A stretch of 64,000 nt of DNA from Lachnospiraceae bacterium (GTDB lineage: Bacteria; Bacillota; Clostridia; Lachnospirales; Lachnospiraceae): NCBI GenBank assembly GCA_016281335.1, contig JAEEIK010000036.1, positions 96,161 to 160,160 on the forward strand, read 5' to 3'. A program made the position numbers and the translations under genes. The notes beneath the pieces were generated by a model. It did no database searches and was not told the origin of the DNA. It saw only the letters and a program-made list of their open reading frames with translations. Numbering within the stretch: position 1 is the stretch's first letter; each line of letters starts with the position of its first letter. Shown piece after piece: positions 40,369 to 46,518 of this stretch.

Positions 40369-41429
40369 GCACCTTCCAGTATTTCTTTTAAAGCGGATAT
40401 AAGTTTATCCGCCTCTTCGTCCGTTCCCACTGTGATCCTGAGCCTGTCGTTTATGCCCGGGGTATCAAAGAAACGCACAAATATGTTACGCTCACGAAGC
40501 GCAAGATATATCTCCTTAGCCGGAACATTCTCATGCTTTGCGAAAACAAAATTTCCCTTTCCGTCAGGCATGGTAAAGCCCAGAGCCTTAAGCTCCTCCT
40601 TCATGCGTTCCCTTGTTTTTACTATCTTTCCGACGTGCTCCCTAAAGTATGCATCATCGGCAACCGATGCCACACCCATATCAATGGCCGGAGTGTTCAT
40701 CGTATAGGAGTTGATAGAGAACTTCACTGCTTCGAGACACTTTATCAGCTTTTCGCTGCCCATGCAGTAGCCTATCCTGGCGCCTGCCATAGCGCGTGAT
40801 TTTGAAAAAGTCCTTATTACCAGCAGATTCTCATACTTATCGATAAGAGGAAGCACGCTCGCATTCTCCCCCGCAAAATCCACATAGGCCTCATCCACCA
40901 TTACCACGCTGTCGGGATTTGCCTTTATGATCTTCTCCACGGTCTCCCTGCTCTCCAGCACGCCGGTAGGGGCATTGGGGTTCGGGAAGATCACGCCGCC
41001 GTTCTTCTGCGCATAATCTTCGGGCCTGATATGAAAATCCTTATCCAGCGGCTTTAACACATAGGGTATACGGTAAAGCTCGGCCCATACTTTATAGAAT
41101 GAATATGTGACATCAGGAAACAGCACGGGAATATCCGAATAAAAGAAAGTAACAAAAGCCATATCTATGACATCATCACTTCCCACACCGACAAATACCT
41201 TGGCAACATCTATCCCGTGATAATCTGCCAGAGCTTTTCTAAGCGGCATGATATCGGCCTTCGGATATAATCTCATCCTGTCATAATCCATTCCTTTTAT
41301 GCATTCGTTCACCTTTGGCGAAGGAGGATACGGATTCTCGTTGGTGTTCAGTTTTATCATGCCCTTTACATTCGGCTGTTCTCCGGGAACGTAGGGCTCT
41401 GCTTTTCTTACTTTATCTTCCCAGCTCAT
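40365..41429 (-). CDS. hisC: Histidinol-phosphate aminotransferase family
   Basis: KLNTNENPYPPSPKV, VDEAYVDFAGE, RTFSKSRAMAGARIGY. Confidence 0.88.
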   Translation of the reverse strand: MSWEDKVRKAEPYVPGEQPNVKGMIKLNTNENPYPPSPKVNECIKGMDYDRMRLYPKADIMPLRKALADYHGIDVAKVFVGVGSDDVIDMAFVTFFYSDIPVLFPDVTYSFYKVWAELYRIPYVLKPLDKDFHIRPEDYAQKNGGVIFPNPNAPTGVLESRETVEKIIKANPDSVVMVDEAYVDFAGENASVLPLIDKYENLLVIRTFSKSRAMAGARIGYCMGSEKLIKCLEAVKFSINSYTMNTPAIDMGVASVADDAYFREHVGKIVKTRERMKEELKALGFTMPDGKGNFVFAKHENVPAKEIYLALRERNIFVRFFDTPGINDRLRITVGTDEEADKLISALKEILEGA

Positions 41430-42076
41430 TGCTTGTTCTTTTCCTCTCTTGCTTTTATCTTTTCAAATTCATTTTCGTATTCGGTCTCATACTCGAATAT
41501 ATAGGATTCATAGGGATTGATTATAAGTGTATCCTTATAGGTCCTGTGTCTTTTATACTCCCTGCCGTAGGTCATGTGCACATGTCCGTGGAGAAAATAC
41601 TTGGGAGAATACTTATCCAGCAGTTCCCTGAAAACCTTAAAGCCTCTGTGGGGAAGATCCTCACCGTCTCCAACCTCATAGGCCGGCGAATGTGTCACCA
41701 GTATGTCAAAGCCCTTATTTTTCCTGATCTGCCAGGAAAGCTTCCTGACTCTCATATCCATCTGCCTGTCGGTATACTGATGTGAACCCGGCTTATATTT
41801 CATGGAGCCCCCAAGCCCCAGTATCCTTACGCCTTCGTAAAGATATATCTTATCTTCAATAGATATACAGCCGTCGGGCGGTATCCTCTCATATTTATCA
41901 TCGTGATTGCCGTGAACGTAAAGCACCGGCGCATGGGTAAATGTGGCGAGGAAAGATAAAAACCTGGGGTCCAGATCGCCGCAGGATATTATGATATCTA
42001 TCCCCTCCAGTTTTCCGGGCTGGTAATAATCCCAGTAATTTTTCGATTCCTTATCCGCAAGGGCCAGGATACGCAT
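41426..42076 (-). CDS. Metallophosphoesterase
   Basis: ISCGDLDPRFLSFL, VHGNHDDKY, LHGHVHMTYG. Confidence 0.88.
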   Translation of the reverse strand: MRILALADKESKNYWDYYQPGKLEGIDIIISCGDLDPRFLSFLATFTHAPVLYVHGNHDDKYERIPPDGCISIEDKIYLYEGVRILGLGGSMKYKPGSHQYTDRQMDMRVRKLSWQIRKNKGFDILVTHSPAYEVGDGEDLPHRGFKVFRELLDKYSPKYFLHGHVHMTYGREYKRHRTYKDTLIINPYESYIFEYETEYENEFEKIKAREEKNKQ

Positions 42077-42078
42077 CT

Positions 42079-43992
42079 TTACTCCATTCCGCTCTTTATA
42101 CCCTGTATCTTTACAAGGTCCACCGCTTCTTCCTTCATCTCGGAGATATCCGGAATATAGCCTTCTATATTGTCACACAGCCAGTCTATGTTTACCGCTT
42201 CTTCAGCTCCAAGAGTCTGTCCGTCCTCACACTTGATCATGCCGTCCTGGGCATAGATGGGTCCGGTCATGGGATTGATATCCATATTCTTCACACCGTT
42301 CCTTAAAGTGCGCAGCAGCCTTATCTGACCGGCAGGAAGATTTCTCGAATAGATAACGTCTATGGCCTCCGAGCTCATTCCCCAGAAATAATTAAGCGCC
42401 TGTTCCTGGAAGACGTTCTGATCGTTCTTATATCCGCCTCTCATTATGGAACGGATTATCTCTTCGTATAATTTACCCCAATGCCTTACCGGCATCGCAA
42501 GATTGATGTTCTTCTCCGTGGCCTCATCGACCATATAGAGTCCGAACTCTCTTCCGAGGCTCATCTTGGCATTCAGGTCACGTCCGCTCACCAGCCTTAC
42601 ATTATTCTTTTTGAACGCCTCTATCGGATCGTGATCCTTTATCTGCGACCATTCGAGAAACACCTTTGCTCCGGGGTTCGTCATCTGTACACCCATTGCG
42701 AAAGCGTTTATCTCGGCTGTCGTGCCATGGATCGGATAATCGGAAAGATAACCGATATTTCCTTCCGCATGCATGGCTCCGGCTATGGCTCCTATTATGA
42801 ATTTAGCCTCGTACATACGCAGATAATAGGATCTGATGGTCTTGTGGCTTAAATTCATCGAGCAATTTAAGATGGTCACTTCCGGATGATTGACCGCTGC
42901 CTTAAGCGCCGCCTGGGATAGCTTGGGTGAAGTAGCAAAGATCACCCTGTTCCCCGCTTCCACCGCTGCTTCGAAAACATCATCGGCATCATCACCGTCC
43001 ACCCGCTCTACGCAGGATGTCACTATCTTATCTCCGAATACGCCCTTTACATACTGCCTGCCAAGCTCATGTCCGTAGGTCCAGGCTGACTCCTGGGCAG
43101 ACCTGTCATGTATGAAGGCGATCTTCATCACTCCTCCGCCGGGAAGGAGCTTGCTTAATGCCACCTTCTGTGACTCGGGCGTAGGATTCAGCACCAGCTT
43201 CAGTTCCTCGCCTGCTGCATAGCTTACGAATTCCGGCCAGAGCCTGGATATCTCTTTTTTCAGATCTCCTTCGGTTTTCTCCAGTGCTTCCTCAAAACCA
43301 TAGACACCCAGATATACGATAACGCCGTCACCTGAAGTAATGTTCAGACTGTTTCCGGCTCTTAAGTTATACTCCTTTTCAAAATAGGAAAAGAAAGCCC
43401 TGAAATTCTGCTTCTGCTCTACATCCCATTCTTTTTCGTCACCGTAGGTCAGTTCCAGCAGCTTCTTGAAATTGCCTTCTCTTGACATATAGAGATAATT
43501 GATGCCTGTCAGCTCATAGAAATCCATGAACTCATAGTAGATCTTTACTTCCGGATCCTCACTCTTTTTAGGCACAAGCCTGGTGACATTGCCTTCTATG
43601 CTCACGGCATCGGTGTACTTGGATACCGATACTCGTTTGTTTCCTTCCATAACATAGAACTTATTATTGAATTCATAAGCCTTGATAGGATCCCTGAGTC
43701 CCTCTTCAAGTATGTCATCATAAAGCTGGGACCACTTGGTTGCGAATTCCGATCCGGTCTCCAGTATGGGCATGAAATTAGATGCAAAGGCGGTAGTCCT
43801 GCCCTCGCTGTAGGTTCCCACTATGGATTTGATAGGTATCTCAACGAGCCCCAGAGGGACCTGTCCCTCTATATCCACATGGGACACTATCTCCTCCAGT
43901 ACCGGAAGATAAGGATACTCACCTTTGGATATCCTCATCTTATAATCCCTGGCGCCTGCCTTATATGCTTTAACATAATCACTTATTGCCAT
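42079..43992 (-). CDS. ParB/Srx-like N-terminal domain fused to BMP/PnrA-type substrate-binding domain, no signal peptide
   Basis: N-term VEIPIKSIVGTYSEGRTTAFASNFMPIL...GLRDPIKAYEFNNKFYVMEGNKRVSVSKYTDAVSIEGNVTRL; C-term MKIAFIHDRSAQESAWTYGHELGRQYV...YEAKFIIGAIAGAMHAEGNIGYLSDYPI. Confidence 0.78.
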   Translation of the reverse strand: MAISDYVKAYKAGARDYKMRISKGEYPYLPVLEEIVSHVDIEGQVPLGLVEIPIKSIVGTYSEGRTTAFASNFMPILETGSEFATKWSQLYDDILEEGLRDPIKAYEFNNKFYVMEGNKRVSVSKYTDAVSIEGNVTRLVPKKSEDPEVKIYYEFMDFYELTGINYLYMSREGNFKKLLELTYGDEKEWDVEQKQNFRAFFSYFEKEYNLRAGNSLNITSGDGVIVYLGVYGFEEALEKTEGDLKKEISRLWPEFVSYAAGEELKLVLNPTPESQKVALSKLLPGGGVMKIAFIHDRSAQESAWTYGHELGRQYVKGVFGDKIVTSCVERVDGDDADDVFEAAVEAGNRVIFATSPKLSQAALKAAVNHPEVTILNCSMNLSHKTIRSYYLRMYEAKFIIGAIAGAMHAEGNIGYLSDYPIHGTTAEINAFAMGVQMTNPGAKVFLEWSQIKDHDPIEAFKKNNVRLVSGRDLNAKMSLGREFGLYMVDEATEKNINLAMPVRHWGKLYEEIIRSIMRGGYKNDQNVFQEQALNYFWGMSSEAIDVIYSRNLPAGQIRLLRTLRNGVKNMDINPMTGPIYAQDGMIKCEDGQTLGAEEAVNIDWLCDNIEGYIPDISEMKEEAVDLVKIQGIKSGME

Positions 43993-44011
43993 TATATATA
44001 CACCTCATCAG

Positions 44012-44218
44012 TCGCTTTCAGCGACAGCTTCTCCTCAAGGAGAAGCCTTTGAATTTTTGCCACGAACAAGATATTCATTCAGCTCTGCTTCGCTTCACTG
44101 AATGAATATGTGATTTGCCCATGCACAATCAGCTTCGCTGATGGGCAAATCACTTCATAACTCGGGCATCGCTTCGCTAGCCCTCGCGTTTTCTGTTCGA
44201 TTTGCCACGAACAAGATA
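44012..44218. repeat. Cluster of short hairpins bracketed by an 18-bp direct repeat
   Basis: CAGTCGCT/AGCGACAG, GCTTCTCC/GGAGAAGC, ATATTCATTCAG/CTGAATGAATAT, GTGATTTGCCCAT/ATGGGCAAATCAC; TTTGCCACGAACAAGATA at 44057 and 44201. Confidence 0.85.
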
Positions 44219-45652
44219 CCATAAAAGCGGTATTGATGCAAGCAAGCAGACTATTGCAAGCGCAATGGGGTTATACTCTCCGGCATCCTTCCCCACAAAA
44301 GCTGCCACGTAGATCACCGCATTGGCTCCGACATGAAAAAGCAGAGGGGTAAGAAAAGCTCCGGTCCTTTCATAGACGCAGGCCATGATCAGCCCCATTA
44401 TGAACGCATACACACCCTGGACAGGATTACCGTGAAATATCCCGAAAAACAGCGCCGTGGTGAAGACTGCCAGCTTAACATTTAGGCAGCGCCTTATCCT
44501 GCCGTACATAAGCCATCTGAAGCAGAATTCCTCACACAGAGGTGAACAGAGAACATACATTATGAGTCCCGGCAGGAAACTGACATCGGCATGAAAAACA
44601 GCAGCCTCCACGGTCTCATTGCCGGTCTTGAGTATTTCCATAAGCCTTTCCGCAAAAATGTTCAGAGCCGCAGCCTGCAGCATCCCGCAGAGAAACGCAG
44701 CAGCAGGGTAAGCCGTACTGACCTTTCCGAAAAGATTAAGAGGTTCTTTTTTCCGGAATACGGCAAAATAAACGACGGCTATGATCACGTAAGCCGCGAT
44801 ATTCATGTATATGCCCCTGTCCGCTCTTATGAAAGGGAATATACCCCCGAGTTTATTCAATGCATATGCGGAAAGCCTGAAAACGATCAGATAAAAAGCA
44901 AAAGGCACAAGCATGTATACGGCTCTTCCCATTGAGCTGCGCGGAAGCTTTCTGATGCGGTCATTCTCCGTCTCGGTTCCTCCCAGCAGCAGTTCCGTCA
45001 GTTCCTCCATATCAGAGGCTATGGCATCTGCCCCCGCTTCCGCCAGTTCTCCGTCAAGCTGATAACCGTAAGCTACTCCTATCGCTTCGATCCCCTTTTG
45101 ATGAGCTCCTTCTATATCATACTTCCTGTCTCCCACCATTACCGTGAGATTCTTCAATTCCTCCTCGCTCTTTCCGCTCCTGTCCCTGGCATAGAGACGC
45201 TTCAGCGCCTCATCCACGATCTCGTCTTTATTGATCCTGCGGCCGTCAAGTTCACTTCCTATCACAACGGAAAAGTATTTTCTGAGCCCGAAATACTTCA
45301 GTATCTTTTCAACAAAAACGGTGGCTTTTGAGGAAGCGACGCCAAGCTTTGCTCCGGAGCTTTTTAGTTTGGCCAGAACAGTTCCTATCCCTTCATAGGG
45401 TATGTTTTCCTTCCAGCCCGTTACCGAGAAACGTTCACGATAGTACTTAATAGCCTCCTTGCAATGCTCCTCATCCATGCCGTAGTATTCGGCAAAGCTG
45501 TCTGCAAGCGGCGGTCCGATAAAGGGCGTCAGCTTTTCGATATTTTCTTCTTTTATTCCGGACTTCTCAAGCGCATACTGAACCGATCTGCATATACCCT
45601 CTTTCGGATCGGTCAGTGTTCCGTCCAGATCAAACAAAATATACTTATACAT
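44177..45652 (-). CDS. Fusion of HAD hydrolase (phosphoglycolate-phosphatase-like) and CPBP/CAAX-type intramembrane protease
   Basis: N-term YILFDLDGTLTDPKEGI...VMVGDRKYDIEGAHQKGIEAIGV; C-term multi-TM with CEEFCFRWLMYGRI, FFGIFHGNPVQGVYAFIMG, FHVGANAV. Confidence 0.88.
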   Translation of the reverse strand: MYKYILFDLDGTLTDPKEGICRSVQYALEKSGIKEENIEKLTPFIGPPLADSFAEYYGMDEEHCKEAIKYYRERFSVTGWKENIPYEGIGTVLAKLKSSGAKLGVASSKATVFVEKILKYFGLRKYFSVVIGSELDGRRINKDEIVDEALKRLYARDRSGKSEEELKNLTVMVGDRKYDIEGAHQKGIEAIGVAYGYQLDGELAEAGADAIASDMEELTELLLGGTETENDRIRKLPRSSMGRAVYMLVPFAFYLIVFRLSAYALNKLGGIFPFIRADRGIYMNIAAYVIIAVVYFAVFRKKEPLNLFGKVSTAYPAAAFLCGMLQAAALNIFAERLMEILKTGNETVEAAVFHADVSFLPGLIMYVLCSPLCEEFCFRWLMYGRIRRCLNVKLAVFTTALFFGIFHGNPVQGVYAFIMGLIMACVYERTGAFLTPLLFHVGANAVIYVAAFVGKDAGEYNPIALAIVCLLASIPLLWYLVRGKSNRKREG

Positions 45653-45837: not shown

Positions 45838-46518
45838 ATGTTTTGGAATTCAGAAGAAGATTACTATGTTCTTAATCAAAACGGCTACATAGCCCTCGCA
45901 GTCATCGCGCTTCTCGTGCTGCTCATGATCGGAATCCTGAGAGCCCTCAGGAAAGATGAGCCCGCCAGATCAAAATCCCCGGTAATAACACTGACTTTCG
46001 CAGGAGTTTCCATAGCGCTTGCTTTTGTGCTTTCCTATGTCAGGATATATAAGATGCCCTGGGGCGGAGACATCACTCTTTTGTCCATGTTCTTCGTCTG
46101 CTTTGTAGGCTATCTCTTCGGACCGGGCACCGGCTTCGCAGCAGCTTTTGTTTACAGCATACTCCAGTTTATTCAGAGCGGCGGCACATACATGCTCTCG
46201 CCTTTCCAGGTGTGCTGTGATTATTTTCTTGCCTTTACTGCTCTGGGCGCTTCGGGTTTCTTTAAAAATAAAAAGAACGGCCTCGTTATCGGTTACCTCG
46301 TGGCCGTATTCTTAAGAGGTGTATTCCACACCATAGGCGGTTATCTCTACTGGATGGATTACATGCCCGAAAACTTTCCCGCTTCACTTGCGATCATTTA
46401 CCCCATCGCATACAACTATGCCTATCTGATACCCGAGGCTGTGATCACCGTTGTCGTGATACTCCTGCCTCCCGTAAAGAAAGCGCTGAACAGGATAAAG
46501 GGCATGGCCAAAGCTTAA
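45838..46518 (+). CDS. thiT: Energy-coupled thiamine transporter S component ThiT
   Basis: YVRIYKMPWGGDITLLSMFFVCFVGYLFGPGTGFAAAFVYSILQFIQSGGTYMLSPFQVCCDYFLAF; downstream of TPP riboswitch. Confidence 0.92.
   Translation: MFWNSEEDYYVLNQNGYIALAVIALLVLLMIGILRALRKDEPARSKSPVITLTFAGVSIALAFVLSYVRIYKMPWGGDITLLSMFFVCFVGYLFGPGTGFAAAFVYSILQFIQSGGTYMLSPFQVCCDYFLAFTALGASGFFKNKKNGLVIGYLVAVFLRGVFHTIGGYLYWMDYMPENFPASLAIIYPIAYNYAYLIPEAVITVVVILLPPVKKALNRIKGMAKA

Follow-up and report, generated by a model that had tools for sequence, protein, structure and literature searches.

A gene pair encoding a ParB-like fusion protein and a metallophosphoesterase

On its reverse strand, the window (the whole 64,000-nucleotide stretch of Lachnospiraceae DNA analyzed here) carries a gene for a fusion protein that combines a predicted ParB/sulfiredoxin (Srx) core with a BMP/PnrA-type ligand-binding domain, followed by a gene for a metallophosphoesterase. 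The features are listed below.

41426 to 42076, reverse strand: partner gene 2 nt downstream of the fusion gene, encoding a 216-aa calcineurin-like metallophosphoesterase (PF00149, 1.3e-11)
42079 to 43992, reverse strand: ParB/Srx-helical-BMP fusion protein, open reading frame with ATG start, 637 aa
42133 to 43128, reverse strand: BMP/PnrA-type ligand-binding domain, residues ~289-620 (PF02608, PDB, Foldseek)
43207 to 43566, reverse strand: helical region, residues ~143-262, DUF4032-like and common to BMP-less relatives (alignment of relatives)
43567 to 43872, reverse strand: predicted ParB/Srx (nucleotide-switch) core, residues ~41-142, with Box I-like R65 and P-motif G117-N-K-R120 (Foldseek, PDB profile matches, invariant residues)
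43993 to 44012, reverse strand: ribosome-binding site and in-frame stop TGA directly upstream of the fusion ATG, TGATGAGGTGTATATATAATG

The boundaries of the fusion gene are exactly those given in a preliminary description of this DNA; the open frame comprises 641 aa and the protein 637 aa. That description recognized both terminal domains but missed the helical DUF4032-like region between them. AlphaFold modeled the whole protein with a pLDDT of 89.4 and a pTM of 0.83, and among its relatives 80 loci out of 275 were kept as having the full-length architecture.

The ATG is preceded at a distance of 8 nt by a good ribosome-binding site (GATGAGGTG), and five codons upstream of it the frame is closed by a TGA, so that no signal peptide can be hidden there. 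The N-terminus is charged, and the hydropathy maximum over 19-residue windows anywhere in the protein is 1.18. Neither the fusion protein nor any of the 80 relatives has a hydrophobic N-terminal segment or lipobox; the signal peptide, lipobox or transmembrane anchor expected of a BMP transporter lipoprotein is thus absent, and across related loci no ABC transporter gene recurs as a neighbor. As already proposed in the preliminary description, the fusion protein is predicted to be cytosolic, though databases label such proteins as exported nutrient-binding proteins.

A mobile or plasmid origin was considered and rejected, since of 249 plasmid records with matches only two span the fusion, which is therefore essentially chromosomal. 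The intergenic region upstream of it (43990 to 44180, reverse strand) contains several near-perfect hairpins (z -5.7), two of them with GCGAAGC-type loops. None of the closest relatives tested has this leader, and no Rfam family matched it above cut-off; it was therefore rejected as part of the module. Also in the window are a 491-aa protein (44177 to 45652, reverse strand) that joins a phosphatase domain of the HAD type to a membrane protease domain resembling Rce1/CAAX, and a ThiT/YuaJ-like thiamine ECF transporter S-component (45838 to 46518, forward strand).

The N-terminal core has a predicted ParB/Srx fold

A Pfam search of the N-terminal half of the fusion protein gave no match, and the ParB family PF02195 was not matched above cut-off by the protein. 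A profile built from 29 relatives and compared with 177,635 PDB sequences gave two matches, sulfiredoxin (E 0.35) and ParB (E 0.39), each individually weak, yet both pointing to the ParB/Srx superfamily. Modeled separately, residues 1-267 reached a pLDDT of 93.4, and Foldseek matched this model to Myxococcus xanthus ParB with CDP (7bnk, 1.0e-4), Noc (3.5e-4) and sulfiredoxin (6ky4, 5.0e-4, TM 0.66), as well as to PadC and SbnI (the latter at E 0.11). PADLOC matches (PD-Lambda-5_A, 0.003) also fall on the ParB/Srx residues.

Conservation within the core is high, with 26 of 102 positions invariant; G59, R65, F73, G117, R120 and K125 do not vary among the 42 relatives compared, whether BMP-fused or BMP-less. 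G117-x-x-R120 fits the P-motif GxxR, the arginine of which is required for NTP binding in the ParB fold according to a survey of ParB-fold proteins (PMC12704722). The BMP-fused proteins carry EGNKR at this motif, and its second residue is N in the fusion protein versus E in the GERR of ParB. In the same survey, 28 ParB-fold proteins were purified and 17 of them showed no nucleotide binding (PMC12704722).

The profile search, the AlphaFold and Foldseek comparisons and the intermediate relatives agree, which confirms the predicted ParB/Srx fold at the level of models and bears out the earlier assignment; both motifs quoted for it are among the most conserved positions. The earlier extent of ~150 aa needs refining: the core spans residues ~41-142, and the N-terminal module that is shared among relatives is longer, at ~262 aa. 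No helix-turn-helix (HTH) DNA-binding domain or ParB C-terminal dimerization domain was matched in Pfam or NCBIfam, and the C-terminus is BMP. The helical region of BMP-less relatives scores against DUF4032 (PF13224), one of them (L148) above the cut-off (24.6 versus 23.8 bits), whereas the window protein has no match to this family and a different C-terminus.

The C-terminal domain resembles purine-binding BMP/PnrA proteins

Bmp (PF02608) is the single Pfam family matched by the fusion protein (1.3e-15, 57.6 bits versus a cut-off of 24.1). A PDB search found 3s99 (1.3e-29) and AtzT (6pi5, 3.3e-27), aligned over residues 289-614, and Foldseek with the fusion model gave TM scores of 0.80-0.81 to the same two structures, with PnrA weaker. 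Like these proteins, the fusion has the whole two-lobe domain and the WTYxH, W-G..Y and WGM motifs; unlike BMP/PnrA binding proteins, it is predicted to be cytosolic, has no lipobox or signal and has no transporter. Structure prediction thus recovered both the ParB/Srx and the BMP fold, and the predictions support the two points on which the preliminary description had staked itself, the N-terminal fold and the cytosolic location.

The AtzT pocket holds guanine, and adenine was modeled in 3s99 (PMC6834077). In the alignment to the fusion family, the AtzT-type guanine pocket (Tyr45, Ser97, Glu165, Trp194, Asn218 and Asn220) is not kept as a set: Tyr45 corresponds to an invariant Trp304, Ser97 to Ser, Thr or Ala at position 355 and Glu165 to an invariant Gly423, while Trp194 has no equivalent. 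We therefore rejected a transfer of the guanine specificity of AtzT to the fusion, and with the Glu165 and Trp194 equivalents missing the ligand need not be a purine. The pocket is nevertheless strongly conserved inside the fusion family, which makes it plausible that the BMP domain binds a specific heteroaromatic ligand. The former label 'nucleoside-type' holds in so far as the nearest structures bind purine bases, but the residues that set this specificity are not conserved.

Two further BMP-domain proteins are encoded at L154 and L155 (C40 and C146 of the same genome), each with an N-terminal membrane segment. By eye, both have regulator-like sequences as neighbors, one at L155 resembling GGDEF. 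BMP domains may here serve as sensors in a second, membrane-bound setting.

A metallophosphoesterase is the near-invariant partner

When neighboring genes were clustered, the downstream phosphoesterase was the sole constant neighbor of the fusion, and most others varied, though within the genus of the window other neighbors are conserved too. By tblastn, 82 of 87 related loci have it next to the fusion, at most 400 nt away, on the same strand in 79 of these 82 and with a median gap of ~30 nt; in three distant genomes it adjoins the fusion in opposite orientation. One of the five loci without an adjacent phosphoesterase is a contig end. This near-invariant neighbor, which BMP-less relatives share, is a candidate output that was missed when the protein was described as a sensor 'of unknown output'. 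No metabolic pathway emerged from the neighbors of BMP-fusion loci, as none besides the phosphoesterase is consistent. Judged by eye, a few distant loci seem to have genes of purine metabolism (purA, purD, adenine deaminase) in their vicinity, too few to use.

The invariant residues of the phosphoesterase are D8, GD34, GNHD at 56-59, H129 and HGHxH at 163-167; D8, D34, N57, H58, H129, H165 and H167 among them belong to the metal site. Across 15 sequences all the calcineurin-like motifs (DxH, GD, GNHD/E, H, GHxH) are thus invariant except for the motif I histidine (DxH), in whose place E, V, I or R is found. Judged by these residues the enzyme is probably active with its first metal site changed, and its activity could be altered by this replacement. 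Compared with calcineurin-like metallophosphoesterases such as YfcE, Dbr1 and MPPED2-like proteins, it keeps motifs II-V but lacks the motif I histidine, lies beside a ParB-like gene and has best NCBIfam scores under the curated cut-offs. Its best PDB profile matches are RNA lariat debranching enzymes (9.5e-4), and it matches the PADLOC candidate model PDC-S10 (2.1e-18), beyond which we saw no further sign of a defense role.

The pair is probably older than the BMP domain

In a phylum sample of 399 genomes, the ParB-like profile was found in 20 and the phosphoesterase family in 25, with one strong match per genome where present; 18 genomes have both. The ParB-like gene lies right beside the phosphoesterase, in either order, in 20 of these 25 genomes and does not adjoin it in the other five. 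The C-terminus of the ParB-like partner is BMP in Clostridia and a 4Fe-4S ferredoxin-like domain in several other families, and at L146 and L150 the partner is short (~205 aa). This distribution fits an old ParB-like/phosphoesterase pair in which the C-terminal domain has been exchanged. In a maximum-likelihood tree of 67 rows all phosphoesterases associated with BMP group in a single clade (100/98), and the short-partner phosphoesterases are its sister group (98/95). The BMP domain was therefore probably gained once, onto the older pair.

Very small ParB/Srx-only proteins (125-169 aa) occur at L119-L122, in genomes that mostly carry the phosphoesterase, unlinked. At L085 (831-2087) a 418-aa ParB-like protein has a different C-terminus; a search with this single relative mostly recovered the BMP fusions again. 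By eye, the adjoining gene looks like a SixA-type histidine phosphatase, so that a ParB-like gene would again lie beside a phosphatase.

Discussion

Our computations support the domain assignments, the absence of an export signal, the nearly invariant pairing of the two genes and a likely single acquisition of the BMP domain. That a BMP-fused ParB/Srx protein is almost always found beside the same phosphoesterase suggests an internal metabolite-sensing module. We tentatively favor, at somewhat short of an even chance, a two-protein cytosolic module in which a small heteroaromatic metabolite of the cell interior (possibly a purine) would bind to the BMP domain and thereby alter the nucleotide-bound state that the ParB/Srx domain adopts; that state would in turn control the activity of the partner metallophosphoesterase. 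Binding of a nucleotide and of a ligand, contact between the two proteins, which of them controls the other, and the substrate are what we infer here, and gene pairing does not prove contact or the direction of control. A wider version, which is possible but more doubtful, would see a hitherto unrecognized Bacillota family of cytosolic signaling modules in which a ParB/Srx nucleotide switch with an exchangeable C-terminal sensor (BMP in Clostridia, 4Fe-4S elsewhere) gates one dedicated metallophosphoesterase.

The main rival casts the ParB/Srx domain as a kinase of small molecules, comparable to SerK or SbnI, the phosphoesterase as the enzyme that takes the same phosphate off again, and the BMP domain as the binding site for the substrate or for an effector. 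SerK itself carried a ParB annotation until its serine kinase activity was found (PMC5120207), it is the best NCBIfam match of two BMP-less relatives (6.5e-4 and 8.7e-4), relatives have a DGHHR/DGNHR-type motif, and SbnI is among the Foldseek matches. However, the relatives score 18.5-18.9 bits against SerK, far under its 380-bit cut-off, the window protein does not match that NCBIfam family, the BMP-fused form has EGNKR rather than DGHHR, the SbnI match has an E of 0.11 and no conserved catalytic residue is transferable; we regard the kinase as unlikely, though not negligibly so. The third reading is a nucleic-acid module gated by a nucleobase-like ligand, in which a DNA- or RNA-binding ParB-like protein is paired with a phosphoesterase that acts as a nuclease or RNA phosphodiesterase. 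The debranching-enzyme and PDC-S10 matches of the phosphoesterase are consistent with this, and ParB and Noc are DNA binders; but PDC-S10 is a candidate model only, the family searches found neither an HTH nor a ParB C-terminal domain, and the genes are single-copy, long-conserved and in varying chromosomal contexts rather than island-like, so that we consider it distinctly unlikely.

It is very unlikely that the two genes act separately and are neighbors through conserved gene order alone: this would suit the genus of the window, where other neighbors are also conserved, but across families the pairing alone survives, with changed order and orientation and a swapped C-terminal domain. Hardly credible is the reading implied by public annotation, in which the BMP half leaves the cell by a non-classical export route and serves a transporter as its substrate-binding protein. 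A relative is indeed annotated 'BMP family ABC transporter substrate-binding protein', but signal and lipobox are missing in 80 of 80 proteins, no transporter recurs, and the same genome encodes further BMP proteins that do carry an N-terminal membrane segment, one of them beside an ABC ATPase.

With the ParB-CTPase/sulfiredoxin superfamily (ParB, Noc, PadC, Srx, SerK and SbnI) the fusion protein shares the predicted fold, GxxR and a Box I-like arginine; it differs in having no PF02195 match and no HTH, in its added DUF4032-like and BMP domains and in its partner, a phosphoesterase and not ParA. The 2025 survey of ParB-fold fusions describes CBS, HNH, methyltransferase and DUF3850 partners, which likewise join the nucleotide fold to a lineage-specific domain, CBS also being a ligand sensor (PMC12704722). 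The survey was built on PF02195, which the window protein does not match, and its main text makes no mention of a BMP fusion or a phosphoesterase partner (PMC12704722). Our literature search turned up no publication that treats either the fusion or its pairing with the phosphoesterase gene; each domain is known, but the combination and its near-obligate enzyme partner appear to be undescribed.

The annotation of these proteins is corrected by this work, the nearest annotated relative being named a BMP family ABC transporter substrate-binding protein. Recent work showed that ParB-fold proteins also bind CTP, ATP or GTP in roles other than chromosome segregation, and the outputs of such proteins are, to our knowledge, mostly unknown. 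Here a putative sensor and a near-obligate candidate enzyme have both been identified, in common gut bacteria, which makes an orphan ParB-fold switch directly testable.
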